Assembly: GCF_026210795.1 (NCBI RefSeq)
Contig: NC_089457.1
Location: 1,240,001-1,304,000 of the forward strand
DNA length: 64,000 nt
Direction: 5' to 3'
Origin: Rhizophagus irregularis
Taxonomy: Eukaryota; Glomeromycota; Glomeromycetes; Glomerales; Glomeraceae
Shown here: positions 1-63,107 of the stretch, in pieces
How positions within the stretch are numbered: position 1 is the stretch's first letter
Layout: each line of letters begins with the position of its first letter
Position numbers and translations under genes: made by a program
The notes under the pieces: generated by a model
Seen by the model: the letters and a program-made list of their open reading frames with translations, nothing else
Told to the model about the DNA's origin: nothing
The model's database searches: none

Positions 1-178
1 ATCAGTTTCAGCATTTTTTTTGCATTTTTACTAGTAAAAAATGCCAGAACTATCAGTTTCGGTGTTTTTTTTGCATTTCTACTAGTAAAACGCTAAAACT
101 ATCAGTTTTGGTGATTTTTTTTATTTCTACAAGAAGAATGCCAGAACTATCAGTTTCGGCGATTTTCTTTTTAGATTA
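1..178. repeat. Tandem repeat of about 50 bp, ATCAGTTT(C/T)GG family
   Basis: About three and a half imperfect copies of a unit containing ATCAGTTTCGG, a T-run, GCATTT, ACTAGTAAAA and TGCCAGAACT. The same family recurs at 1530-1680, so the two arrays bracket the polypyrimidine block between them. No coding potential is seen. It is either a subterminal repeat of a transposon or an independent minisatellite. Confidence 0.7.
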
Positions 179-1510
179 TAACTAATTTTCATCTGGGGTG
201 ATTTAGCAATTTTTCACCTAGGGTGATTTAACCTGATAATTTTATATATTTTTATATAATTTACCCGGTGATATCACCTCATTTAAATTTTATTGGCTAA
301 TTAATATGCTGATCATTTCTTATGTTTGTTTGTTTTTTTTTTAACGTACTCGGATAATCTTTTTTTTCTTTTTTAGGCCTTTCGCTCCTTTGCACGGCAC
401 TCAAGGTACGTTTTTTTTCTTTTTTTTTTATTTGCTTCTTGCATTTTGTTTCCTACTAACTTTATTTCATTTTTTTAGGTCCTTTAGCTCTTTCGGCTTT
501 GCAATTAAGGTATATATGTCCAGCACTAGGCCGTTTCTTATTTTTTATTTCATTCTTATATTTCGTTTCTTACATTTTGTATTTCACTCTTTTTAGATCT
601 TTCGGTTTTTCTCTGCAACTACTAAGGTATGTTTTTATTTTTTTGTTTTCATTTATTTATTACATATAATTTCTGTTCCCTACTAACTTTATTTCTTCTT
701 TTATTTTATGGGTTTGGTTTTTACTTGGTCCCCTGTTTATCTCATTTTCGTTCCTTTTCCATTTTTTGTTCTTTTTCGTCTCTTCATTTTTTTTGCTTTT
801 TTATTTTTCCCTTCCTTTGTTTTTTCCGTTGTTCTTTATTTTCTCTGCGTTCTTTTCATTTTTTTTGTTCCACTTTGTCTCTTTCGTTCCTTTACACTAC
901 CCTTCATTCCTTTTGTTTTATTCCATTCCCGCTTCATCTTTTTTATTCCTTTACACTACCCTTTATTCTTTTTATTCCCCCTTTCGCTCCATCTCGTCTC
1001 TCCTTCATTTTTTCATTTTTTTTCATTCCCACTTGATCTTTTTCGCCCTTTCATTTTTTTCACTCCCCCTTTGCTCCATTTCGTTCCTCCTTCAATCCCC
1101 CTTTGTTTCTTTCATTCCCATTCACCCTCATTTTTTTTCCTTTTTTTATTCACATATTCTCTTTTCTTTATCGTTGTGACTCATTTTTTTTGTTATTCCT
1201 ATCAAAAAATCTAGTATTTTGGATAGTATGAGTTTGTTTTTTTCAATCAATGATTCATGTAATCTATTAAAAATTAATAAATTGCTATAAACTTTTAGTG
1301 CGAAAATATTTTAAGCATTGTTTATTATATATTTAAAAATTTAGCAATCAAAAAATTTCTTTTGCAGAGGATTTATATGCAAATTACGAAGTGAGAAATA
1401 TTAATTTATACCAATCAAATTTAATAAATTTAATAAATTAATCGTGAGTGAAATCACCTAGGTGAAATCACTCTAGGTGATCTTCACCCGGAGAGAAAGT
1501 TAGCAACAGT
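179..1510. mobile_element. Candidate inverted-repeat element with polypyrimidine core
   Basis: The left arm (about 185-235) contains TCACCTAGGGTGATTTAACC. The right arm (about 1445-1500) read on the other strand contains TCACCTAGAGTGATTTCACC. This gives an imperfect terminal or subterminal inverted repeat rich in the palindrome CACCTAGGTG. Between them, about 360-1200 is almost pure C/T on the plus strand. Overlapping open frames there (629-1214) encode only Phe/Leu/Ser-rich low-complexity peptide and are not credible genes. No transposase or clear target duplication was found, so the element is a candidate only. Confidence 0.4.
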
Positions 1511-1514
1511 CTTC

Positions 1515-1690
1515 TTTTTATTATTACATGTAAAACGCCGAAACTATCAGTTTTGGTGATTTTCTTTTCGTTTTTACATGTAAAACTGCCAGAACGATCA
1601 GTTTCGGCAATTTTCTTTTCATTTTTACATGTAAAACTGCCGAACTATCAGTTTCAGCATTTTTTCTTGCATTTTCACATATAATGTGAT
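1515..1690. repeat. Second array of the ATCAGTTTCGG repeat family
   Basis: Three copies of a unit of about 50 bp (ACATGTAAAACTGCC, GAACTATCAGTTTCGG, T-rich spacer). They match the array at 1-178 in sequence and orientation. Confidence 0.65.
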
Positions 1691-3187
1691 TAATTACCAA
1701 TAGTATTTATGGTAATTACGTTAAATGTAATTATTTACAGGTACTTTTGACTAATTACGAAGACATTAATAATTACGATTAACGTAATTATTTACGTTAT
1801 ACATAATTAATTACGAATTACGTAATTATTTACATATTTCAAATTACGAATTACATTTTTGGCTGATAATTTACCAGGCCATGTATATTTAGTTACAGTT
1901 TCCCATTATGAAAAACTTTGCAGTATTTAAGAACTTCAAAGGTAAATGCTTTAAAGTTCTATTTTTTAATGATTGTTATACTAATGATCGTTTCTTTTAT
2001 GTTTAGATTCTGGATTGCTAGATTATATATTTTGAAGCTACTTGCTTTGAAATTTTTTTTCATTTGTAAGTTTTCGTTGTTTGTTGAAATCGAATCAACT
2101 GGAATAATATTCTAAACCATTAACAACAGTAAAGAGATAATGAATAGCAATGACTAGTAATAGATTTCAATTGTATTTGTAAACATGTTAATATATAATA
2201 AAAAAGTAATTTTGATTATATAAATAAATTAGTAATTAATGCAATAAATTAATTTGTATTATTGTGACGCAGATTTTTACTGAAAAAAATTGCTGAGGTA
2301 TTTCAAAGGTCTTTTATTTAAAAATCTGCGCAGAACTTTGTTATTTATAAAATCTGTGCAGTTTTTTATTGGATTTTTCCTCTAATGTTTTGCGCCAGGG
2401 TATAAGATCTGCACAGAAATAATTTCTAAAAATCTGCGCAGATCTGCACCCCAAAAAATTTTCTGATGTACAGTAAAATAACACTAGTTTAATAACGTAT
2501 ATATAATGTATAAAAATGTGTACATTGATATTAAAAATGCGTATAGCAATGGTATTTTTTAGTTTTAATTTAGTAATTATTGACATATTTAAAATTTCAT
2601 TAATTGTATTAATTGTTTTTTTTTCAATTTAAAGTTTATTAATTTTAACACTTATTACCAATACACCATACAATATAGGAGTCATATCTCACAAGAATAC
2701 AGCAAATAGGTCAACCACTCTCACAGTGCAATAAAGATGCATTAATAAACTATATCACGATATAAAATTTAATACTGCAGACAATTAACTCATGATCAGT
2801 TAAACTAAGGTTTGGCTGCCTCAGAAAGCCTGAGGCCAGGCGAGATGGCGTTTCGCCGAAAAGTGAAATTCTGCCGAAACTATATTAAAGTTATATTAAA
2901 AAACTGGCGAAACTTTGGAGAAATGCGAAACTGCTGAAACTTATTATAAATGCTGAAACTGCTGAAACTCTGCCGAAACTATAATAAATCTATAGTAAAA
3001 TTTTGACGAAACTAATCATAGGATTTTGAAGAGGTTTAGACAAGCAACCTTAAGTTAAACAAATTTATTCAAATTTTTGCATACAAAAGAAATATTAACT
3101 ATAATATATTTTTAATATTTTTATAAGAAAGTGTAATTACAACTTGAATTAATTAAAGTGTAGCTTTAAAAATCACTTTTAGTGGGT
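1690..3187. repeat. Gene-free repeat-derived sequence
   Basis: No gene is visible. 1690-1860 carries many copies of ATTACGTAATTA-type palindromes. 2263-2455 carries several AAATCTG(C/T)GCAGA motifs in both orientations. 2820-3010 carries at least seven GCCGAAACT/GCTGAAACT units in AT-rich DNA. These look like decayed MITE or transposon ends, but no complete element could be bounded. The short open frames at 1918-2115 and 2341-2586 lack recognisable sequence or splice context and were not called. Confidence 0.5.
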
Positions 3188-3724
3188 CCTGTAAATAGGG
3201 ATGTTAAAGTCCGTTTAGGTTCAGTTTAAGTTCAGTTCCTTAAAGTTCCGGTAGGTAAAACTCATGAACTTAGTTTATATAATAGGGTTTGAACCTGTTC
3301 AAAACTGGGTCTAAATTAGGTTTGAACTTTTCATTTGAAAAAAATAAAATTCTAATTTAGGAAAAATGTGAAGTAGGAAACTTAAAGTATTTTATTATAT
3401 TTTAAAGTTTATTTAGTTTATTTTAATTGGTTTTAATTAAAATTATCATTTTTTTTTTTGATAAACGCATTTCCTTATTAAATTAAAATATCATGTGATA
3501 GTGCGTGAAACAATTTTGTAAAATAAATTGACTGATAATTTATTAATCCCTTAAACTCATTTAAATAAAAAAAAATACTCTTCATTGCACATATTTTATA
3601 TACTCAAAATTTTCGCCTAAAATTATCTTTATTATTTGTATTTATATTTTATACTTACATTTCATGTAAAACATTTGTATATATTAATCGTAATTACAGC
3701 TTAGTGTTGATTAATTATTGTTGC

Positions 3725-6085
3725 TTATATCAATTTTTTCCAACCAAGATTTAGTACATAAAGTGGCTCTGACTGTTTGTGAGTCAAGTCTATTTCAGGT
3801 TTTAGTAATAATATTGGTAGCAACAGAAAAAGTTGCTTACATGCAACGCTAGTTGCTTGAATACAAAGGTAATCTCTCGCGATTAATGATAGTTTTGGAA
3901 ACTCTTGTTGGTGCGCTTGCCACCACAATAATGGATCTGCTTTTTCATCATAAGGTAAAGCTAAATACCGGTCTAATTCTGGAAAAGTTTCCTCTGATGA
4001 TGTTGAACTTGTAACGAAAAAATAGATGATCGATGTGAATATGTTGAATCACTTTCAAATGAACGACGCCATTTTTGTACAAAATATTCTCATGTACTGC
4101 TATAATTATTTTTATCTAATGCTTTTTAGTTGCAACTTCCACTTGTCATCACATGATAACTACGTAATAAAGCTGTAATAGTGGATATTGCATTAGAAGT
4201 TGGTATTCCTGATGCAAATAAAGTAAGTTTTGTTTGAGGATCCAAAATAGCAGTTACTAAAGTTTGTTCATCAATATATCCCCAATAGTCATCAATTTTC
4301 TGATTTATAGATGATGCTAATTCACTTTGACTACTTTACTAAAAATGGCCAATTTTTTGAAATGATTTTGTAATAATTTTAAAATACTACAAAAATACAT
4401 TTAATACATCAAAATGTTTTTATTATATTTTTGTTATTATTTTGTAATTATATTGTATCTAGGTCTATAAAAACAACTCAAAATAATATCATAATAATTT
4501 TTTAATATTTTTGTTATTATTTTATTATTATAATATGATTAACTTTGATATTATTTTAATATTTTAATCTCAAAAATACCTTAAATATATCTTGATATAT
4601 TTTAAAAATTTTACAAAATAATTGCACAATTGTTTTGAAAGCCATTGTATCTAGGTCTATAAAAATATTTCAAAAAATTGGCCAAGTAAATTCTTCTAAT
4701 CTGATCAAATCATTTAGATAATCTAAAATTCCTAAAAAAACAAACTGAACATCTGCAATTGTTAGATACCGAACAGCAGAAAGATAAACTGTAGCTTTTT
4801 CCAAAGGATCCAAAACAGTAAGTGTATCCTTATAATAAAAAAAATTAAAAAAATATATTAATTATATTAATGAATAATAAATTAATAAATACTTATTTAA
4901 TACTTACTTTAATTATTTTCCACTCATTTTCAGTTGGCATTAAATTTTGAATTTCCCGATTTTTAACAACCAATAATTGCAAATCACGCCACATTTTTTC
5001 CAACTTTCTTAACATATTGTAAGTCGAATTCCATCTTGTCTTACAATCTAATTCTGGTCTCAAGTATGTAATTTTTGCGTACAAGCATAAATTTTTTAAC
5101 TGATCGCTAATTACTATTGAATGTTTAATTTTACTCATTAATTCTTGCACTTTAATAACTTCATCCGATATTAATTCAAGTCCTTGTTGTGCAGCAAGAT
5201 TAAGGATGTGGGCTGAATATCGATAATGTTTAAAATTTTGAGAATTAAGTTGTAAAATTAATTGTTGTCCAAGCGTTCTTCCACACACAAGCATGGCTAA
5301 CTCATTATCTGTTGTAAGGGCCAAAGTTTTTTCTTGAAGATTAAAATTATTTAAAACGTTATTAATTGATATTGCAATATTAACTCCTATATGGCGTTTA
5401 GTAAAGGATATAATATCTAATAAAAAATTCTGCAACTTCTAATTTTGATTGATATAATGAACTGTAAGGCCAAAAAATGCATCATTTGTAAATTTACTTG
5501 TCTACATGTTAGCTGTAAGTGCTATTTTTCCTGGGATTTGAACCATATATGTACCAATATTTTTTCTAACTGAATTGTATCAAATTCGTTTACAACCATA
5601 CTTTTTAAATTTTGTCTATTAGGAACCTGATATCTTGGATCAAATACTTTAAACATATTAACAAAATAAGGATTTTCAACAATTTGGAACGGTTGTAAGT
5701 CAGAAATTATCCAGTCTACAAAAGCCTTGTCTCTCACTTGCTGTTCAGTAATTGGCCATGGATCAACTCTAGGAAAATTCAAAATCATTTGAGTATTTTT
5801 AATATTATCTATAATAATATTATGTTTGTAAAAAAGGTGTTTCTTTAAAGTTAATATTCCAGTTTTTGCTCCATATTCTTTAGAACAGCTTTTACATGTT
5901 TTTTTACCAGAAAGTTGTGATTTAAAATAGTTCCAAATAGAACTCTTTTTATTATTTAAATTTTCGTCATTATTTTCTTTTTCTTCCTCTTTATTATCTA
6001 AAATATTTTCATCTTCATCAAGTTCGCATGGTATTTCAGCTCTTAATTGTTGTAATTGACTAGTTTCTGCAACAGAAAATTCCAT
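3725..6085 (-). pseudogene. hAT transposase, broken
   Basis: Read on the minus strand from 6085. The first open piece (6085-5522) is acidic and then carries a BED-like finger (KKTCKSCSKEY, then KKHLFYKH). The second (5435-4893) includes LALTTDNELAMLVCG and the conserved helical hAT core with HILNLAAQQGLE and KTRWNSTYNML. A third stretch about 4325-4137 carries the family motif TAILDPQTKLTLF. The last (3928-3725) is the dimerisation segment, WWQAHQQEFPKLSLIARDYL. Stop codons, frame changes and a nested element separate these blocks, so no functional enzyme is encoded. The order and motifs are those of hAT transposases; introns cannot explain all the breaks. Confidence 0.88.
4347..4683. mobile_element. 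Inverted-repeat element nested in the hAT transposase
   Basis: A 337-bp AT-rich block with a perfect 17-bp terminal inverted repeat: GGCCAATTTTTTGAAAT at 4347-4363 and its reverse complement at 4667-4683. Internally the string ATTGTATCTAGGTCTATAAA occurs twice in direct orientation. It interrupts the transposase between the RNase H core and the TAILDP motif. No unambiguous target duplication is visible. GG-start termini suggest a PIF/Harbinger-type MITE, but this is uncertain. Confidence 0.65.
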
Positions 6086-6457
6086 TTTTGATAGTTGTAA
6101 TAGTTGTAGTAACGTGTAAACGCGTTAGAGATAATCAGATGATCTTTATTTAATATATATATATCATATCACATGATAATCAGCATTTATGATTGGTTGA
6201 ATATTTTGAACTAATTATGAACTTAGTTTATATAAAGTTCCAAAAATGAAACTGAGTTTCTATTAAACTAGATTCAAGAACTTTCAGTTTAAGTTCCTGA
6301 ACCCAGAACTTTTAACATCCCTACCTGTGAATGCCTTGTGAAGAAAGAGAGGCATTTATGCTAAGAATGGCCATTTTTAAATGAATCATACCCTCTGAGC
6401 AAAAATTTCACTCGATAGTACACATGTGAGATGTTTTATAGTATGATGAGTGGTTTG

Positions 6458-11489: not shown

Positions 11490-14670
<3,181 letters not shown>

Positions 14671-15099: not shown

Positions 15100-16771
15100 A
15101 TGAGTATAAACGCAGGTGCAAATGTATTTAGCATTGAAAGCAAAGGTTTGAAATTAAACACCGCGGAAGATGTTCAAGAATTCGTGAATTCTATATCGGA
15201 AATAAAAAATTTGGAACAAGTGATACTGAGCGGAAACACTTTTGGTGTTGAAGCAGCACAAGCTATTGCTGGAGTGCTTAAAGGAAAGAAGACAATGAGG
15301 GTTAGGAGTATATTTAAACCTTTTGGAGTGTTACTTAATATATATATATAAATACTAATTATTTAACTTATAATTCTTTAACGCGTCAATATTATTGATA
15401 TGATAATTCAATATATTTAATCAGATCGTTAATGCATCAGATATATTTACAGGTAGACTTAGAGAAGAGATTCCATATGCTGTTAAAGCATTTTGCGACG
15501 CGCTCGAAGAAAATGAACAGCTCATCGAGCTTAATTTTAGCGATAATGCGTTTGGTCCTGCAGGTGCTGAGCCAATGGTAGAATTTCTTAGTAATAACAA
15601 ATGGTTCCAAGTTCTTAAACTTAATAATAATGGTCTTGGGACACGAGGTGGCACTCTAATTGGTAAGGCTTTACTCGCTTTGGCTAACAAAAATGTTTCT
15701 GAAGGACGTAGTTCGTCTTTTAGAACTATTATAGCCGGTCGTAACCGATTAGAAGATGGCTCTAGTCAAGCTCTTGCTGATGCAATTGCTGCTCATGGAA
15801 CTTTGACCGAAATTCGTATGCCACAAAATGGTATTCGACCAGATGGTATCATTACCTTATTAAAAGGGTTTGCGGCATGTAAGAATTTAGAAGTTCTTGA
15901 CCTTCAAGATAATACATTTACGGAGAAAGGTTCTGTGGCATTTGCGAAAGCACTTGTTGAATGGCCGAATTTGAGAGTTTTAAATGTTGGTGATTGCTTA
16001 TTATCAGAAAAAGGTGGAGTAGCTATTGCGGAAGCTCTGTTATTAGGACATAACAAAAAACTCGAGACTCTTAATCTTCAATACAATGAAATAGATAGTA
16101 AAGGTGTGAACATATTAGCAACTGCCATTTCTACACATCTTAAAAGTTTATCTTCATTGGAATTAAATGGCAACAAAGTTGATCCGGAAGATATTTCTAT
16201 TAAAAATGTAAGAAATGCTTTAGAAGAAAACGGGTATGCAGATGCATTAGGCGAATTAGATGATATGGAAGTGGAAGAAGAAGAAGAAGAAGAAGAAGAA
16301 GAAGAAGAAGAAGAAGAAGAAGAAGAAGAACAAGAAGAAGAAGAAGAAGAAGAAGAAGAACAAGAAGAAGAAGAACAAGAAGAAGAAGAACAAGAAGAAG
16401 AACAAGAAGATGATGTTGAAAAGGTGGAAAAAATTTCTGTAGTAAAAAATGAGGTGAAACTTGACGAAAAAAATACAACGGAATTGATAACGTCTAGTAA
16501 AGTTGTTGTCAAAGAAACAAAAGAACTTGATATAGAAAACAAAAAGGAACCAACAGTATCGAAAAAGCTGGAAAAACTCTCCATCAAAGAATTAGAAGAC
16601 AAAGAAGATTTAGTGGATCCACAAAAATCTGAAAAACGTACCATCGAAGCGAAAGCTGTAGAAGATAAAACACGTGAAATTAATAAAGATCATGAAAACC
16701 AGCTAATAAATAGCGAAGACCAAGTAGAATCAATTAGAGAGCGTATTACGAAGGTTCAAATTCTTCATTAA
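15100..16771 (+). CDS. Ran GTPase-activating protein 1
   Basis: Stimulates GTP hydrolysis by Ran in the cytoplasm, sustaining the Ran-GTP gradient for nuclear transport. Two exons (15100-15300 and 15425-16771) join in frame to 515 residues. Leucine-rich repeats fill most of the protein, with the family features LIELNFSDNAFGPAG, FRTIIAGRNRLEDGSSQALA (the catalytic Arg-Asn region of RanGAPs), EIRMPQNGIRPDGI and LNVGDCLLSEKGG. They are followed by an uninterrupted Glu/Gln-rich tract from a GAA/CAA array (about 16270-16410) and a Lys/Glu-rich tail. Yeast Rna1 also has an acidic region after its repeats; the tail beyond it here, about 120 residues, is longer than in Rna1. The open frames on the opposite strand are shadows of the GAA repeat. 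Confidence 0.93.
16270..16410 (+). repeat. GAA/CAA trinucleotide array coding for polyglutamate
   Basis: Near-continuous GAA codons with interspersed CAA and GAT, encoding over 40 mostly acidic residues of RanGAP1. It is likely length-polymorphic, and it creates false open frames in the other registers. Confidence 0.9.
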
Positions 16772-34050: not shown

Positions 34051-34774
34051 CTAGTCCTCCTCTCCAAGATGAAATGTTCCCTTTCTAATAATATCTCTTT
34101 GTTTCCTCAACCATCTACGATAATCTGTCACAGATTTAATTTTTTCACCGTAATAATCAGGTGCTGGGTTTCGAAGTGAGTGTAAAGATGGATCCGCTCT
34201 ATTCTTTTTAATGTGAGCATAGAAATCTCGATCGCTCTAATGTAATTTGAAATTTCAAATATGAGTAATAATAAAAATGTTACATAAATCACATAAAATA
34301 TCTCTTTACGAGATCTATTTAGTAAGTGAATATGAGGCGAGTCCCCATAATAAAAACTAAGTCACGTACCTGTTCCATTAATTCAACTTCCCTCCTATGA
34401 AACAATTTCCAAATTGAACTTCCAATGACAGGTCCAATCATTAATCCAGTAAAACCACATAAAATAGTCCCAAATCCATAAATCACAAGAGGATCATGTC
34501 CCCATATTAGAGTAGGATCAAATTCCTTAGAAGCAAAATAAGCAAAACTAATCCCGAAACCTCCAAGTGCCGTTGGAATTGTAACTAACCGTTCAGTTAT
34601 TCGTCTTTTACGCCTTAATACAAAATATTCGTTCCAAGTCAACTTCCTTTGTTGGGGAGATGAATTGTTTGTTGATATTGAATAATGCTGTATGTATATC
34701 GAAGGTTTTTGTAGAACTTCAGCTTTTGGTATAAATGGGGTTTTAAACCTTGATAATGCAAGTTTAAACGCCAT
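34051..34774 (-). CDS. Presequence translocase-associated motor subunit PAM17
   Basis: Inner-membrane subunit of the TIM23 import motor, needed for assembly of Pam16-Pam18 with the translocase. Two exons (34774-34370 and 34236-34051) join in frame to 196 residues. The N-terminal part is a matrix-targeting sequence ([20 protein letters not shown]). [20 protein letters not shown] leads into two membrane segments: [18 protein letters not shown] and [20 protein letters not shown]. The second exon has the conserved [20 protein letters not shown] and [20 protein letters not shown]. Length and topology fit the family. It is divergent from NOG1 with a 266-bp shared promoter. Confidence 0.95.
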
Positions 34775-35040
34775 TATTAAATAAAGAGGATTTCATACAC
34801 TGTATGCTTTTTATCTTTTATATATTTAAATTTTTGTAATAAAGTTTACGAAAAGGTAAACGTCAATTTGAGTGAAAGTTAGTATTTCAAAATTACTGTC
34901 AAAAAAGAAAATCTAGAAAATCTAAAATCTACGATTTTGTCAACCAATCAAGATTCGCATAATTTTGTAACATCAAAATTTTCTCGAGCTGTTTGATTTT
35001 TTTTTTTTCTTTTGCGAGACAACTCGTGTTCTAATTCAAT
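34775..35040. promoter_or_regulatory. Divergent PAM17-NOG1 promoter
   Basis: 266 bp between start codons. TTCTCGAGCT lies at 34981-34990, 51 bp before the NOG1 ATG, identical to the motif before RanGAP1. A T-rich tract follows it. Confidence 0.5.
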
Positions 35041-38133: not shown

Positions 38134-40698
38134 ATGAGCAACAGTACAGAATCACCATCACAGTCTTCTAATGGTTCTTCTAGAAACCCTAGACTTAAAG
38201 AAGCTAAAGAAACTTTAGCAGACACTTCTAAATTTGCTTTAGAAGCTGTGAGCAATGTAGGAGAGGCTGTTGGACCTTATCTTCCTTTGATAACAGCAGT
38301 AGCTTCACTTACACAACAAATTGTAAAAGCATATGAAAGTGCTCAATATAATAAGAAATCATGCGCAGCATTAATTGAAAGAGTACAAGCAGCTGAAGTA
38401 GCTGTTCAAGCATTAAATCGGCGTAAACAAGAAAATGAAAAAAAATTTCGCAATCAATCATATTATTATAACTTTGAAAGATTTGTTGCTATTCTGAGAG
38501 AAATTAAAGGATTTATTCAAGATGTAACTCATTTATCTGGTTACAGAAAATTTATTTCAAGCGTTCATATTAAAGAGAGATTTCAACAATTAATTACAGA
38601 TTTTGATAGTGTTGTAGCGGATTTACAACTGGCAATGGTAATTGCTAATGAGGAGGAAAGACAGTCGGATATCGCTATGTTACAAGAAGATATTGACGAA
38701 ATGACCAAATTTTTAGAAAAAATTGAAGGTGGCGTAACAACTATTGATAAAAAGATTAGTAATGTTCTCGAACACATCTTAACTTTAAAAGGCAAATCAT
38801 CCGAAAAAGATTTCAACCCTATTATCAATAGAATTGATTCAAATGAGTTAAAAGAACCTGTTGGTGGTAGTCAAGTTCTATCATCACGTAACAAGCATAA
38901 GATACATAAAAAACTTTATAGAGGCCAGGATGTAGCATGTAAACTTATTGCCGAGGAACAAAATAAATCTGATAAATCTGAAAAATTAACGGAAACAGTT
39001 CCACCAATTTCAAATAGGGTTCATGCTGAATTGGCAATTTTGAGTAATTTAGGGAAATGCGATTACATTATTAATTTTCATGGATTATGTGAAAAGGATG
39101 GAAGTGTTTTGGGTGTTTTTGGATGGGCAGAGAATGGAAATTTGAGAGAACTATATGGGAGATATGAAATTGAATGGCCTCGAAAATTAAAAATTGCATT
39201 AAACATTTGTCGTGGGATTACTTTTCTTCATGGATGGTTAGTAAAAAAATGCAATTTGATTGATATTCTGAATCTAGATTACTAACTATATTATATTATA
39301 TTTCTCACAATTACCTGAAAACTCGATGTAGTCAAATTTTACATCATGATATTAGGTAAATATTTACTTTATACTTGAATTCATGAGAATTTGAATAATG
39401 ATAATTAAAGTAAATTCTCAACATTAGATGTGAAAATATATTGATAACCGAAAATCTGGAACCAAAAATTTCGAATTTCAAGTATAGTCGTGCTTTACAA
39501 GCAAATACTACCAACATTGGGAATATTACACAAATCGTTCGTTGGTTAGCACCTGAGAAAATGAATTCAAAGAAAATACAGACAGAAATTGCAGCCGCTG
39601 TTTCAGCAGCACAACAGGCACCGAAGAAAGATGAAGGTAAGAAAGATAGGAAAGATGATGATTATGTTCCATACACCATACAATGTGAGATATTTAGGTA
39701 AATATATAGCACTGAAAACTGACTTATTTTTATTTGAAATATTTTAAATTAATATGTGTTCTGCTGTCTTAGTTTTGGAATGTTACTTTGGGAATTAGCT
39801 TTTCAAAGATTTCCATACAAAGATATGGAAATTTCTGAAATTCAAAAACATGTATTAAATGGTAAAAGAGAACATTTAAATTTTCCTTTAAGTTCATTTG
39901 GAGTTGAGAAAGAATATGGCAACATTATTAAAGCTGGTATGGTTTATCTTTTTTAAAATAACAATTCAGTAAATTATTTACTATAAGTGAAATTAATAAT
40001 TAAATATTAAATTTGCATTCTTAGCCTGGCAATCGGATCCATCTCTTCGTCCAGAATTAAGTTATTTATTCAATGATCTCGAAAATTTGAGTTCTCCTTT
40101 ACTTTCAGATCGTTCACCTAGAGGATTAAATCCGAGAAGAAGCGAAATGGAAGTAACACCTATTGAATTGCCACCAGGAGATACAGATGATTTCGATTTA
40201 GACCAAATAGATTTTATTTTGCCAATGATGAAACTTGAAGATGGAATATCAGCTCATAAGATTGGAGACAGAAAAAAAGCTTTTGATTGTTTTGAAAAAC
40301 ATGCTGAAATAAATAATAAAGTTGCAAAATATTGGCTTGGTTATTATTATTGGGAAGGTTATGTAGTTGATAAAAATTTAGGTAAAGCAGTTGAGTTATT
40401 TAGAGAAGCTGCTGATAAAGGGGTTCCTGATGCCCAATTAAGATATGCGTTTGCTTTATCAGATAAAAATAGTCCACTTAAATTTAATTTAGAAGATTTT
40501 GTGAAATACTTAACTATGGCGGCTGATAATGGAAATACTGCAGCTCAATTTAATTTGGGTGATTTATATTTCAATGGAAAATTGGGTATTTCAAAGGATG
40601 AAGAGAAAGGTTTAAGTTATTTAAAATTGGCAGCTATTAAGGGTCAACCAAAAGCTCGTGCTATGTTAGATAAGTTAAAAATCAATTACTTCGTTTAA
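38134..40698 (+). CDS. Helical-bundle / pseudokinase / Sel1-repeat protein, MLKL-like layout
   Basis: Five exons (38134-39236, 39332-39355, 39428-39697, 39773-39936, 40025-40698) join in frame to 744 residues. Residues 30-225 are helical: a hydrophobic first helix (VGPYLPLITAVASLTQQIVK), then long amphipathic and coiled helices, resembling the four-helix bundle plus brace of MLKL-like proteins. A kinase-like domain follows. The beta3 Lys (VACK, K270), helix-C Glu (E299), HHDIRCEN (D374, N379) and APE (WLAPEKM) are present. The glycine loop is degenerate and DFG is replaced by NFK (392-394), so phosphotransfer is doubtful. A Lys/Asp-rich insert follows APE. The tail has at least three Sel1-like repeats (AKYWLGYYYWEGYVVDKNLG, AAQFNLGDLYFNGKLGISKD). 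A signalling or cell-death role is inferred from architecture only. Confidence 0.85.
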
Positions 40699-49628: not shown

Positions 49629-50930
49629 CTACATATTGACTGGTTTAAATTTTTTTGCACCAGAATGTGGAAGAGTAGCTTGAGCACAAGGAAGACCACT
49701 ATCAGAACGAAGATGACGATTTAAAGCATCTAATCTAGCAAAAGCACGACTACAATGACTGCAAACATGAGGTTTGAAACCTAAATGTAAATTATAATGA
49801 CGTTTACGATCATGTTGTCTTGCGAAAGCTCTCATACAACCTTGATATCCACAAAGGAATGGTCTTTCATCAGTGTGAGTACGTAAATGACTTTTTAAAT
49901 TATATTGACGAGTAAAGGTTTTTGGACAATCTTCATAAGGACATGCAAATGGTGCAGCAGTTTTTGATTTACGAGCAGGTTTTGGTGGTGCCAAATTCAT
50001 TGTATGTAATCTTTCTGCCATATCGCTTGGAAGAGATTTACGATGACCTCTATGAGAAATTGTAGATCGAGTTCTGCCACGTAATACATTAGAATCTGAT
50101 TTTCTATTATTTGTCTTATTATTATTTTTTGGTTGATCTTGAACTTGTTGTTGTTGTTGTTGTTGATGATGTTGTTGTTGTTGCTGTTGTTGTTGTTGAT
50201 GATGTTGTTGTTGCTGCTGTTGCTGTTGTTGCTGTTGATGTTGAACTCCTGCGAGAACTTCCTGTACTTCCTGTTCCATAATATCTATTTGAGAGTTTGT
50301 AATTGCCATTGTTGGTAATTGATCATCAGAAGTTGATAATTGCATAGTATAAGGATAAAGACTATCAGCAATAGCGGCAGCTTTTATAGGAGTAATTGGA
50401 GTAGCAGGTACAAAATTAAACATTGGTTGATCAACTGACAAACATTCAGCAAAAGTATTTGGAGAAAGTCCATTAAAATTATCGTTTAAAAAATTATTCG
50501 TACTAGTATTTTGATTAGTAGAAGTAATATTTGTATCGAGTTTAAGTGAACCGCCAACCGAATCAACGGTTAAATCATTATATTGATATTGAGAAATATC
50601 ATCCAAAGAATTCGAAAATAATTGAGTAGAATCTTGGGTATAAAATTCATAAGAATCATCTCTTCTATTATCATGATCAAGATATGTTTGTTCATTTGGA
50701 AGATTTGGTGAGGAAACTCCAGAACTTATATAACCATCAGATGAAGGTTCATAATCTGAAAGTGAAGGTGATGATCCTATACTTGAACTTTGAGCTGGGG
50801 AACCATAAGATGGAGTATAATAATTATAATATCCAAAAGTTGGTTGAATAGTAGTAGTTGATGGATTATAATAATCAATATCAGTAACTGGGAGTTCTTT
50901 TTGAAAAAGATATGCGGTTTGAATTTCCAT
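49629..50930 (-). CDS. C2H2 zinc-finger transcription factor, CRZ1-like
   Basis: Single-exon gene of 433 residues, unlike its intron-rich neighbours. The N-terminal 220 residues are Ser/Tyr/Asn-rich and probably an activation domain. A Gln/His run (about residues 231-266) comes from a CAA/CAG array. The C-terminal DNA-binding part has finger 1 (CPYEDCPKTFTRQYNLKSHL, then RTH), finger 2 (CGYQGCMRAFARQHDRKRHY, then NLH) and finger 3 (CSHCSRAFARLDALNRHL, then a final Cys in GLPC instead of the second His). The FARLDALNRH third finger with a variant final ligand is typical of fungal Crz1/Prz1-type factors acting in calcium-calcineurin signalling. I see no clear calcineurin docking motif, so the pathway is uncertain. 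The start at 50930 is the first ATG. Confidence 0.88.
   Translation of the reverse strand: MEIQTAYLFQKELPVTDIDYYNPSTTTIQPTFGYYNYYTPSYGSPAQSSSIGSSPSLSDYEPSSDGYISSGVSSPNLPNEQTYLDHDNRRDDSYEFYTQDSTQLFSNSLDDISQYQYNDLTVDSVGGSLKLDTNITSTNQNTSTNNFLNDNFNGLSPNTFAECLSVDQPMFNFVPATPITPIKAAAIADSLYPYTMQLSTSDDQLPTMAITNSQIDIMEQEVQEVLAGVQHQQQQQQQQQQQHHQQQQQQQQQHHQQQQQQQVQDQPKNNNKTNNRKSDSNVLRGRTRSTISHRGHRKSLPSDMAERLHTMNLAPPKPARKSKTAAPFACPYEDCPKTFTRQYNLKSHLRTHTDERPFLCGYQGCMRAFARQHDRKRHYNLHLGFKPHVCSHCSRAFARLDALNRHLRSDSGLPCAQATLPHSGAKKFKPVNM
50125..50245 (-). repeat. CAA/CAG polyglutamine array
   Basis: Long run of glutamine codons broken by two His-His pairs within the zinc-finger gene. It produces the false leucine-rich frame on the opposite strand (50133-50318). 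Confidence 0.9.
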
Positions 50931-53900
50931 TGCTAATTATATTCGTTTTTTGTCGTTAAAAAAAATAAAGAAAGAAAGAAATACGATTTTTTTTTTTATG
51001 ATCGATTTTACGAAGAAAAATTTTTTTTTTTTTTACGAAATTTTTATGGAATGATTTTAGACAGATCGATATATATATATGTAAAAATGACAATTAATAT
51101 CCGTAATAGTAACAACAGATTACATTTAATGGTTAAAAATAGAAATTAAAATGATTTGCCGAATATTCCGTGTAATGTAATGCAAAAATAGTAAACACTT
51201 TTTTTATGAGAGGGTGATTTTTTTCTTTTAAAAGAGATATAAATAGACTTTTATCGTAATAGTTTATAGACTAATATAAAAAAATAATAATTGTATACTG
51301 TATATATATATAAAAAAAAGTAAAAGCTTCTTCTTCTTTTTTTTTTTTTAAAAAAAAAAAAAAAAAGTTTTTATATGATTTGAATAACGAAGAGAAGTGA
51401 AAGTACAAAAAAGAACTTGAACTTCTTCAAAAATATTTTAACTTTTTTTTACTTTTTGAATTATTTTTAAACACACGCTAAAAAGTGTTGGTGTTGGAAA
51501 AGAAAAAGGACATCCTTGTTGTTATATATATTTTTTTTTTCTGCATTTGAGGTGATACAAAATTGAGTTATTTTTGGATTTGAATAATAATATTTAAAAT
51601 AACATCAGGTTGCATGATGGTTTCCATTATTAGAAATATCACAGTGATAACTAATAGTTAAAAGTACCTCAACGGCCGATAAAAATAGATTTTTGTTTTT
51701 TAATGTAATCAAAAAGATTCGGACAAATTTCCGTCTTTATTGTAATTTTAAAAAATATAATTCAAGTTGGTTTAAATTGTGTAACAAACAATTTTAGTTA
51801 TAATTACCAAATTATTGGATTATAATACCTGTATTTAATGTGCCACTTCCCTTTGACGTTTATTTTTGCCACCTTTCCAGCCTTACCATATTTAGTTCAT
51901 ATTCAATGCACGTGCTTTCATTATAATACCCGAAGTTATTCATAGGTCGTCAGTCCAGCATTTCAACGATCTTTTTTTCAAATTATTTGAAATTAAAATT
52001 GATTTACGTTAGTAGCATAATGTCTTGGGATAGGACAAAAGTTGTGTGTGTGGGAAAAAAATAAAAATAAAGTTTTCATGAATTTAAAATTTTTTAACCA
52101 AAATCATCATATTTCTAACCTTTTTTCTTTCTTTCTTTCTTTCTATTCTTTCTATTCGAATGATATAATAATATATTTGTTAGTCATAATTAAAACAAAA
52201 TAAGATAAATTAAGAAAAATTAAATAAAGTTCGGTTATTAATTTTTTCCCCACAATAATTAGACAAGAAAGATTAGATGTATTTTTAATCAACCATCTTT
52301 AAAAAAAAAAGAGAGAGGAGATATCATAAAATCTCGCTTTTTACATTGTAAAAAAAATTGTTATCCGATAATTCTCAGATATGATTTGTTTACTGTTTAA
52401 GGAATGGATATTAAATTTCCTAAAAGTAGGAAATTATGAGATAAGATAAAAAATATTATTGGTTGTTCAATTAAGATTATTTAGAAATAATCAGTTAAAT
52501 ATTATTATCATTGTTGAAAATTAAATTTTCATTAACATTATTATTTTCTCGCCCGAATTATGAATATTATGAATATCTTTATCAATTATTTTAACGGAAT
52601 TGTCCGCTAATTATTTACCGCAGTATACGTGGCTTATCGTCCGAAAGTTACTCAATTTACCTATTTATAATAATATCGACAAAGTGGCGAGTAAAAATAT
52701 TCATTATCTTATTATCAATGAAAGGGGTAAACTATAAAGTTAAACAAAGAAATTTGAAAAAAGTGCTATCTTTTACTAAGCCTACTTAAGCCATCGACTC
52801 ATAAATCAGTACGACGTTCTTAACATATTTATCAAATATTAAAAAAATCATCTGATGCTTTGATGATCATCAAAGGTACCAAAAAAGTAACTAGGAGAGG
52901 ACGGAGAATGGGAGAAAATATAAAATACAAAATTACATTTTACATTTTACATTTTTTTTTTTCTTGACAATCTGGCAAAAAAACTCCCATTTTAATTCAC
53001 ATTTTCACACTCTTTTATATGAAAAAATTCATCAAATTTATTAAACTTGGCACAACATTTGAAACATTAAAGAGAAAATTACTTAGTTCCATTACTTCCA
53101 TGATTACCAGCCACTAAACTAAATTAAGTAAATGAGATGAAAGATCCATGGTGGCTTGATTAAATAGAATTTTCTTTTGAAGGCTGAAACATGCACAAGG
53201 AATTTTCGGATAATGTGGATGATGCAGAGAAACATGATAAGAATATGTTGGAATATGTATAGAATAATAAACAAATACATCATTGCATCATATGTAACCA
53301 TGGATATTTTTAAATCAGTATAACCGTATAACACTGGTAAATTAATAATGTAATAATAAACAATTATAATTTTAAAGTATTATATATTATAGTGGCAAGA
53401 ACCAATAATTATGAAATTCTAAAAATAAAAAGTTTTTGATTAACTTGACAATGGTTATATAATAAACAATGATATATCTGTTATAATGATATTCATAATA
53501 AGATGACGTATTAAATCATTTATCATCCCCTCAAAATAACAAAAATAGTTTAGCCTAAATAATAAATTAAGATGGCATCATGAATAAATAAATGAATAAT
53601 TCAAATAATTCATATTTTTTTTTTTTTACAACTCTTTACCAGGTTTTAAAGAATATATGTAGTTTATCAAGATTTTTATGCATAATACAGAAAAAAATTT
53701 TTTTAAAAAAATTTTATTTATTTTTTATTATTTTTTATTATTTTTATTATTATTTTTTTTTATTATTATTTTTTTTTTATTATTATAAAAAAAAAATTAA
53801 AATTAAAATTAAAATTCTTATACATGTATATACATTTTTTTTATACATTTGATATTTTAAAATTACATTGTTTCGTACTCATTTTAGTAAGAAATCCTGA

Positions 53901-60825: not shown

Positions 60826-63107
60826 ATGCCTTTGGTACGTAAAAAAAATTTTATAATCTTTTCGAACTTTTACTTAGTACCAAGTTATATTAAATGGTTT
60901 TCTTTTTATCATTCGTAATCGACTTTTTTATTTTCTTTAGGAATACGCTCTTCAACACAGGTAAATAATAATCTCTAATAGAGACAGAGATGACCTCGAA
61001 ATGTTTTTTTTTTTTGAAATCAGTATTAATTAATATAGTAGTTGAAAATTACGATGACTGTTATTGAAAAAGTTTATTCGATCAAATTTATAAAAACAAA
61101 TATAATTAATGTATGTAAATTCACTTTTTTTATAATCAGAGGACTTTTCCCAGATCCTGGACCATGGAAGATTCCTCAAACTCGCGCAGTTATCCTTAGA
61201 GATAATCTAGGAATTGACGCTTTACCACGACAACGTTTTAATAAAACTAAAAGAACACCTTATGTACTTAATATTATGGTTGTTGGTAAGCATAAATAGA
61301 ATTTTATAATCTTAATTTCAATCTTTTTATCAATATTATTTGAATAAATTTATACATTTTTTCATAAACTGAAAGAAATTGACGAAATTCATTCTTGTTG
61401 CGCGAATTATTAAATACATAAGGCGAGAGTGGACTCGGAAAAACCACTTTTATGAATACTTTGTTCAATACACCCCTCAAAGAGGAAATCCTCCCGAAAA
61501 ATCCACAAGCCACACAGACAGTTGAAATTGTTCCCGTACATTATGGTTGGTTATTCCCTTTCGGAATAAATTTAACTTGTTGACCTTTTACAAGTTCAAT
61601 ATTTAAAATTATATAATATTATAGAATTGGTTGAAAATGGTGTAACTCTTAACCTAACTGTCGTTGACACGCCCGGATTCGGTGACCAACTTAACCGTGA
61701 ACACAAGTACGTTAATCTTAGTTTTAATAAATGAAGTTCGTCAATATCCTCCACTATATATTCACATTTTTTTTTTTTCCAACAAGTCTCAATCCGATTG
61801 TTGAATATATTGATAATCAATTCGAAGCTTACCACACGGCTGAGCGCAGTTCCGAATTTAGACGTGCAATTCCAGATACTCGTATACATGCTCTATTGTA
61901 TTTTATTCCACCAACTGGTCATGCGTATGTAATGATTCTTAATTATTATCACAAAAAATATATATATATATATATATAAATAATGATTTACTAATTTAAA
62001 CTTAAATTAAAAAAGTCTTAAAGAACTTGATATCAAAGCCCTCCAAGTTTTATCTACTAAAGTTAATGTAATTCCCGTTATTGCAAAAGCTGATACACTT
62101 ACACATGAAGAAAAATCGGCATTTAAGAAAACTGTATGTTATTCATTTTATTCAATTTCATGTTTTATTTGTTTCAAAGATAGACTAATTTATAACCTTT
62201 ATATAATAAATATTATTATGATTAGATATTAAGAGATATCGATTTTAATAATATCAGAACTTTCCCCACAGCTTATCCAGATGATCGGGAGAGTGTTGAG
62301 GAACTTGAGGTATGACTAATTATTATTATTATTATAATAAAAATTTTGTAAAATATTAATCTTTTTTATATTACAACAGAAATATATTCCATTCACTGTT
62401 ATTGGCAGTGACACATTTGTGGAAGTAGAAGGTAAAAAAGTACGAGGACGATTATATCGATGGGGTGTAGTTGAAGTTGAAAACGAACAACATTGTGATT
62501 TCATTCATCTTCGTGAACTTCTTATGACACATGCGCTTCACGATCTTCTTGAGACAAGTCATACCGTTCATTACCACAATTTTCGAGCTCAAAGACTTCG
62601 TTCAAGTGGTCGTCCAGAATCCATTCTTGCTTGTGATGATTCTTATGAGCACAGAATTGAAAGAAGCAAACAAAATATGGCCGAAGATATGATCAAAAAG
62701 GAAGAAGAAATGAGACAAAACTTTGTGTTGAAGGTTAGAGAGAAAGAAGCAAGCTTAAGAGAAAGAGAAGAACAGGTAATGTATTTTTTTCTGGTAGCCA
62801 ATATGTAGTTGTTTACGAGGCTTCTTTTTTACTAAACGCATTATTATTTGTAAATATAGCTTAATCAACGCAGACAACAACTTATGGCAGAATTAGAAGA
62901 GCAACGTTTGGCACTTGCAGCTGAAGAACGTGAATTCCAAGAATTGTATAATGCAAGTCGGAGCACTAGGTAATTATTTTGTTCGAATTTAAGTTTGTAA
63001 TTAATGTTATTTATATTACAAATAATAATTATATTAAATAAATTATATTTTTTTTTTATTTATATAGTGTCTCAAAAGGCAGCAAAATTTTTGGCAAGAA
63101 AAATTGA
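60826..63107 (+). CDS. Septin
   Basis: Septins form heteromeric filaments at septa, buds and membrane domains. About ten exons join in frame; the first encodes only MPL (60826-60834) and the second seven residues. Next come [20 protein letters not shown] and the polybasic [10 protein letters not shown] before the GTPase domain: P-loop GESGLGKTT (G1, split by an intron after VVG), DTPGFGD (G3) and AKAD (G4, [14 protein letters not shown]). The septin-unique element is seen in [20 protein letters not shown] and [20 protein letters not shown] long C-terminal coiled coil ([34 protein letters not shown]) follows, ending KIFGKKN. GTPase motifs are intact. The subgroup (Cdc3, 11 or 12 type) is not certain. 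Confidence 0.94.

Follow-up and report, generated by a model that had tools for sequence, protein, structure and literature searches.

The gene at positions 38134-40698 (+ strand) of a 64,000-nucleotide stretch of Rhizophagus irregularis DNA (contig NC_089457.1, positions 1,240,001 to 1,304,000; this whole stretch is called the window here) encodes a predicted protein that combines an MLKL_N-family domain with a kinase fold from which the DFG aspartate, a metal ligand, has been lost and with Sel1 repeats as a tail, and profile searches and gene models show that this combination recurs in many paralogues. We propose, at about even odds, that this glomeromycotan protein acts as an MLKL-like switch. 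The pseudokinase would restrain the helical bundle until a kinase acting upstream, or a ligand or partner that the Sel1 tail recognises, shifts the conformation of the protein; the released bundle would then oligomerise at a membrane and permeabilise or mark it, and within the coenocytic mycelium the outcome would be local regulated cell death or the sealing of a compartment, with defence or a non-self response as the most plausible setting. From this layout we infer that the family may have roles in non-self recognition, stress or death.

The window gene and its domain order

The gene can be modelled from sequence alone as five exons encoding 744 residues, all introns being GT-AG, and this model bears out the coordinates and the length given in a preliminary description of the window. 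Its features are as follows.

38134..39236 (+), exon 1: N-terminal extension, MLKL-like bundle, brace-like helices and pseudokinase N-lobe (gene model; Pfam)
38296..38658 (+), MLKL_N match, residues 55-175 (Pfam)
39332..39355 (+), exon 2: 24-nt micro-exon with most of CQILHHDIR, the catalytic loop (gene model; GT-AG on both sides)
39428..39697 (+), exon 3: CENIL...NFK...APE plus a Lys-rich insert (gene model)
39474..39482 (+), NFK at the DFG position (direct sequence reading)
39773..39936 (+), exon 4: pseudokinase C-lobe (gene model)
40025..40698 (+), exon 5: C-lobe end, acidic linker, Sel1 repeats and stop (gene model; Pfam)

Pfam profiles (hmmscan) match the protein in the order MLKL_N, kinase, Sel1, which supports the bundle, pseudokinase and Sel1 layout first described; the Sel1 repeats are above the Pfam cut-off (E 4.4e-17) in two stretches, the best being residues 693-727. 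This is a solo copy whose frame starts with a methionine soon after a stop, and two kinase queries found no second kinase beside it in the 64-kb window.

The N-terminal domain

The MLKL_N match at residues 55-175 has an E value of 3.1e-9 and scores 36.9 bits against a cut-off of 27. Residues 1-259 alone match MLKL_N with E 3.4e-10, the next profile being MitMem_reg (9.8e-5, under its own cut-off). When the N-terminus was reversed or shuffled Pfam gave no MLKL_N match, and the best match of the reversed sequence, Laminin_II at 9e-4 and under its own cut-off, shows the level of generic coiled-coil matches. The preliminary description had assigned the N-terminus to the MLKL type, and the profile check agrees, since the match is above cut-off and is not confined to generic coiled coils. 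In a single-sequence search of the PDB with this N-terminus the top five matches, and six of all nine, were MLKL (E 0.01-0.22). We aligned it with 26 paralogues (27 sequences; copy L010 was omitted because of a stop codon) and found P51, Y72, N73, L80, R83, F150, D163, L164 and L183 to be invariant; used as a profile against the PDB this alignment matched MLKL at E 5e-6 to 6e-5, with nothing else below 0.006, and every one of the 27 members matches MLKL_N in Pfam. The Pfam HeLo profile gave E 0.38 with the window N-terminus and 0.0023 with one of the 27, NCBIfam gave no match to that N-terminus, and PF14479 (HeLo) and PF17111 (PigL_N) had no match in the genome, a result that is uninformative since the control genomes were equally silent.

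The pseudokinase

No glycine loop is seen in the kinase-like domain (KIHKKLYRGQDVACK), which keeps the lysine in VACK and the catalytic-loop aspartate and asparagine in HHDIRCEN and has NFK in place of DFG; the bundle thus precedes a kinase domain that lacks some catalytic residues. This reading confirms Lys, Asp, Asn and NFK as listed in the preliminary description, which had called the glycine loop degenerate; its alpha-C glutamate survives in part, as the putative residue is conserved in the close C29 copies (below) and is H, Q or nothing aligned in distant paralogues. The DFG aspartate is missing in all 35 readable copies (37 examined), and the catalytic aspartate is retained in 29 of 32 readable copies. 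A very divergent bundle-pseudokinase-Sel1 relative, L061 (C10:1602301-1604677), reads HKY for HRD and NFR for DFG. The catalytic loop was also sought as a degenerate DNA pattern, which found six places only and was dropped as too narrow for counting.

The paralogue family

At E <= 1e-3 the window N-terminus has at least 127 matches across the genome, counted per exon and hence not equal to 127 genes. MLKL_N has 71 matches in the genome and none in 14 control genomes, and Sel1 has at least 150. The family size, like the fused-kinase copies described below, is not visible from the window alone and so lay beyond the reach of the preliminary description. Among 31 family regions, picked mainly as best matches and not randomly, 28 combine bundle and pseudokinase with Sel1 (L041 being broken, and L039 containing two copies, one of them without Sel1); the other three are L059 and L060, each with a canonical kinase and three bundles, and L069, with a DLG kinase and a bundle. 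The bundle-pseudokinase-Sel1 layout is retained at 35-40% identity across contigs.

Between close copies the ratio of nonsynonymous to synonymous substitution rates (dN/dS) is mostly below 1: against the C29 copies it is 0.27-0.53 in the N-terminal exon (one 68-codon piece, 1.10), 0.16-0.57 in the N-lobe piece, 0.11-0.91 in kinase exon 3 and 0.22-0.39 in the Sel1 exon (short or broken pieces, up to 0.95), all as ratios without a significance test. These values bear on the idea that this is a fast-turnover duplicate family, its copies being largely decaying by-products of local duplication. In-frame stops do interrupt two of the seven close copies at C29:1.41-1.46 Mb (those at C29:1.419 and 1.440 Mb), and one copy has no Sel1; against this, the copy in the window is intact, dN/dS stays under 1 in all compared pieces except one and the layout persists across contigs at the identities given above, so that we regard general decay as very improbable.

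Predicted kinase fusions in the C29 cluster

Seven close copies lie in a cluster at about 1.415-1.458 Mb of C29, which places them roughly 134-178 kb away from the window gene; an eighth, more distant bundle at C29 1.415 Mb is covered in part. Four of the seven (the upper L039 copy, L043, L040 and L042) are predicted to carry a DFG kinase in frame with bundle and pseudokinase.

C29:1420100-1422889, L039, fused copy
C29:1424792-1427795, L043, fused copy
C29:1443456-1447211, L040/L044, fused copy
C29:1455330-1458389, L042, fused copy

In each of these the bundle frame extends upstream into what appears to be the end of a kinase C-lobe, and a donor (..AAG|GTAA) and an acceptor (..AG|AA) join it to the preceding kinase exon, giving K-E-C-W (Q-E-C-W in L042). 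That exon bears DFG in all four, and the full set of GRGSFG, FALK, HRDL and ADFGLSK was read in the two whose upstream exons fall within the stretches examined, the L040 copy (with L044) and the upper L039 copy (with L043). The distance between ECWK and the bundle's PYLP motif is 112 codons in three copies and 55 in L042, always free of stops; the three longer linkers differ by no indel and contain methionines, at which a separate bundle protein could start, and the L042 linker has no methionine between ECWK and PYLP. Pfam calls a kinase in the upstream exons, and the bundle and the pseudokinase N-lobe in the next exon; the short C-lobe end carried by the bundle exon gets no call, and a genome search found similar C-lobe ends adjoining several kinase exons elsewhere. 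The open frame, the splice junction, the resemblance of the C-lobe end to kinase tails elsewhere and the shorter, methionine-free linker of L042 thus argue for fusion. Since Pfam does not call the C-lobe end, and since no purifying selection is seen in a 65-codon kinase-bundle linker (dN is not below dS, with few changes), we take the fusion as predicted, not proven. We had considered the upstream kinases to be separate neighbour genes, a reading dropped for the fused copies because kinase and bundle share one frame, which runs into the bundle; for the three copies with methionines in the linker it stays conceivable. Sel1 is present in three of the four fused copies and absent from the upper L039 copy; no fused kinase precedes L044 or the lower copy in L039, which are solo like the window gene, and L041 looks like a broken fused copy. 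A predicted DFG kinase ahead of the bundle in four paralogues fits kinase control of an MLKL-like module.

Other kinase-bundle layouts

At two further loci three bundles in tandem seem to be joined to a canonical kinase.

C1:5192574-5195276 (75-2780 of the stretch examined), L059: about three tandem bundles, then a canonical DFG kinase
C1:5.24 Mb (92-3999 of the stretch examined), L060: about three tandem bundles, a canonical DFG kinase and degenerate further kinase units behind

Three N-terminus matches were found by genome search in each, and Pfam calls two bundle stretches in L059 and one in L060. The kinase exons of L059 read GKGGFG, VALK, HRD and DFG, and GT-AG introns could join these exons; no Sel1 was found in the L059 and L060 stretches examined. 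L059 and a pseudokinase copy, L033 (C1:5189388-5190023, -), are oriented divergently with about 2.5 kb between them. In L069 (320-2047; C15:1013519-1015246) a DLG kinase is followed by a bundle frame, and a GT-AG intron could join the two; stops separate the frames, it was not counted as a fusion, and the remainder of its 3.5 kb showed no pseudokinase or Sel1.

Such loci bear on two other accounts of the bundle. It could belong to a membrane-associated or oligomerising signalling scaffold, in which the bundle recruits while pseudokinase and Sel1 assemble a complex, with no cell death. The joining of bundles to DFG-bearing kinases favours this, as do a first bundle helix that is not N-terminal and the very large repertoire of Sel1 (see above) and of kinases, with 2,533 kinase genes in the R. 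irregularis genome according to PMC10234402; yet the sequence consistently matches the MLKL executioner domain and not other bundles, and the DFG aspartate is lost in every readable copy. We rate a scaffold as a real possibility, though not a probable one. Alternatively, the bundle could be a kinase-regulatory or dimerisation domain that merely resembles MLKL_N, membrane contact being irrelevant. Its tandem copies and its position next to canonical kinases are in keeping with this, as is the higher rank of other helical bundles in structure comparison (below), but the specificity of the sequence profiles for MLKL_N and the silence of the reversed and shuffled controls make it unlikely.

Structure models and points against the switch

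The model of the window N-terminus has helices at 47-72, 74-104, 108-132, 137-141 (short), 144-196 and 201-220, with a mean predicted local distance difference test score (pLDDT) of 56 and a predicted template modelling score (pTM) of 0.41; a four-helix arrangement is thus predicted at low confidence, in a model too weak to count as support. Foldseek placed MLKL chains at ranks 14, 17, 19, 27 and 41 among the best 50 (E 0.31-0.61), and a VIA comparison had no MLKL chain among its best 50 entries. A full-length model of paralogue L049 does not settle the matter, being too weak both in the bundle and near the activation loop. As to the four-helix bundle first described, no bundle-free structure was obtained, and the model is too weak, and too often outranked by other bundles, to establish it.

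Several points weigh against the proposed switch. For the weak N-terminal model, the scores of chemoreceptor, de novo and other helical bundles exceed those of MLKL. In kinase fold comparison MLKL is among the best, and other kinases tie with or beat it (best 16.4); the best 60 of 1524 matches of the kinase part to PDB sequences are FGF receptors, and we do not class the protein as an orthologue of vertebrate MLKL. The first bundle helix lies about 48 residues in from the N-terminus, residues 49-56 aligning with MLKL chain positions 7-12, and because of this offset and of the kinase ahead of the bundle in the fused copies an N-terminal helix that is free to insert cannot be taken for granted. 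Helix 1 has a moderate hydrophobic moment, 0.21-0.43 over 18-residue windows that begin at 43-59.

Comparison with known systems

Vertebrate MLKL, like the window protein, has an MLKL_N-family domain followed by a pseudokinase from which the DFG aspartate is gone. Its catalytic-loop aspartate is also lost, whereas this residue is mostly kept in the fungal family (29/32), which differs further in its Sel1 tail, in the N-terminal extension of about 48 residues and in having many genes rather than one. Plant MLKL, which serves in immunity, joins an N-terminal MLKL/HeLo-type domain to a kinase-like domain in a different lineage from the fungal family, and we know of no Sel1 tail in it.

Wheat Pm13 is a plant MLKL example (PMC10951266). 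Fungal HELL/HELLP, HeLo and basidiomycete BaMLKL domains belong to the same four-helix bundle superfamily as the window N-terminus (PMC9815663, PMC12881547), and BaMLKL, too, has an extra helix ahead of the first bundle helix. In those papers HELL, HeLo and BaMLKL are mainly described with NLRs and amyloid motifs; the window N-terminus reaches only the E value of 0.38 given above with Pfam HeLo, and the C-terminus of the window protein consists of Sel1 repeats. HELL domains occur in fungal proteins with a kinase or pseudokinase domain, and clusters of two or three genes are mentioned (PMC12881547); a fungal MLKL of Basidiobolus is also mentioned (PMC11476962), and kinase and Sel1 genes form high-copy families (PMC8647823).

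Closest to our data are two sentences in section 3.3.3 of PMC8778642, by which MLKL-family homologues were found in Glomeromycotina only and possess Sel1, and a table entry there that gives their putative role as programmed cell death. These homologues (TCDB 1.A.105) share MLKL homology, Sel1 and fungal group with the window family, which very probably is the same; the portions of that account available to us hold no domain anatomy, DFG loss or kinase fusion. In a search of open-licence literature, with subscription journals and preprints outside its scope, neither DFG loss nor the kinase-bundle-pseudokinase-Sel1 fusion appeared in titles and abstract starts among the matches listed, and the triple-bundle canonical-kinase loci were likewise not found among them. 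Glomeromycotina MLKL with Sel1 is therefore already in print, and the fused-kinase copies and triple-bundle kinases were not found in that search; the preliminary description, which had called the layout less described, was right in degree, given PMC8778642 and the HELL proteins with kinase or pseudokinase domains of PMC12881547.

The rest of the window

Ordinary genes nearby encode a leucine-rich repeat protein with an acidic tail (15407-16768, +), Pam17 (34322-34792, -), a C2H2 zinc finger protein (49632-50936, -) and a septin fragment (62341-62805, +). A BED zinc finger with a neighbouring frame at 4896-6124 (-) appears to be the remains of a transposase, which we take to be of hAT type. 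A long Arg-Asp/Arg-Glu repeat frame occupies 12302-13068, where the DNA is near-periodic and several frames are open on both strands.

Implications

In our judgement, little is understood at the gene level about how arbuscular mycorrhizal fungi undergo regulated cell death or recognise non-self. It is conceivable, though we think it doubtful, that the C29 fusions are self-contained necroptosis-like machines, a single polypeptide uniting canonical kinase, MLKL-type bundle and pseudokinase with a Sel1 tail for sensing or oligomerisation, and that together with solo copies which such kinases could activate, and with the triple-bundle kinases, they make up a large innate-immune or allorecognition repertoire in which the RIPK-MLKL pair is fused rather than split. 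If so, switch and executioner would sit in a single molecule, and the fused copies bear on the possibility of a kinase-MLKL relay as one protein. The MLKL-like Sel1 family, its predicted fused-kinase copies and the triple-bundle kinases offer concrete genes with which a necroptosis-like pathway may be tested in an early-diverging fungus.
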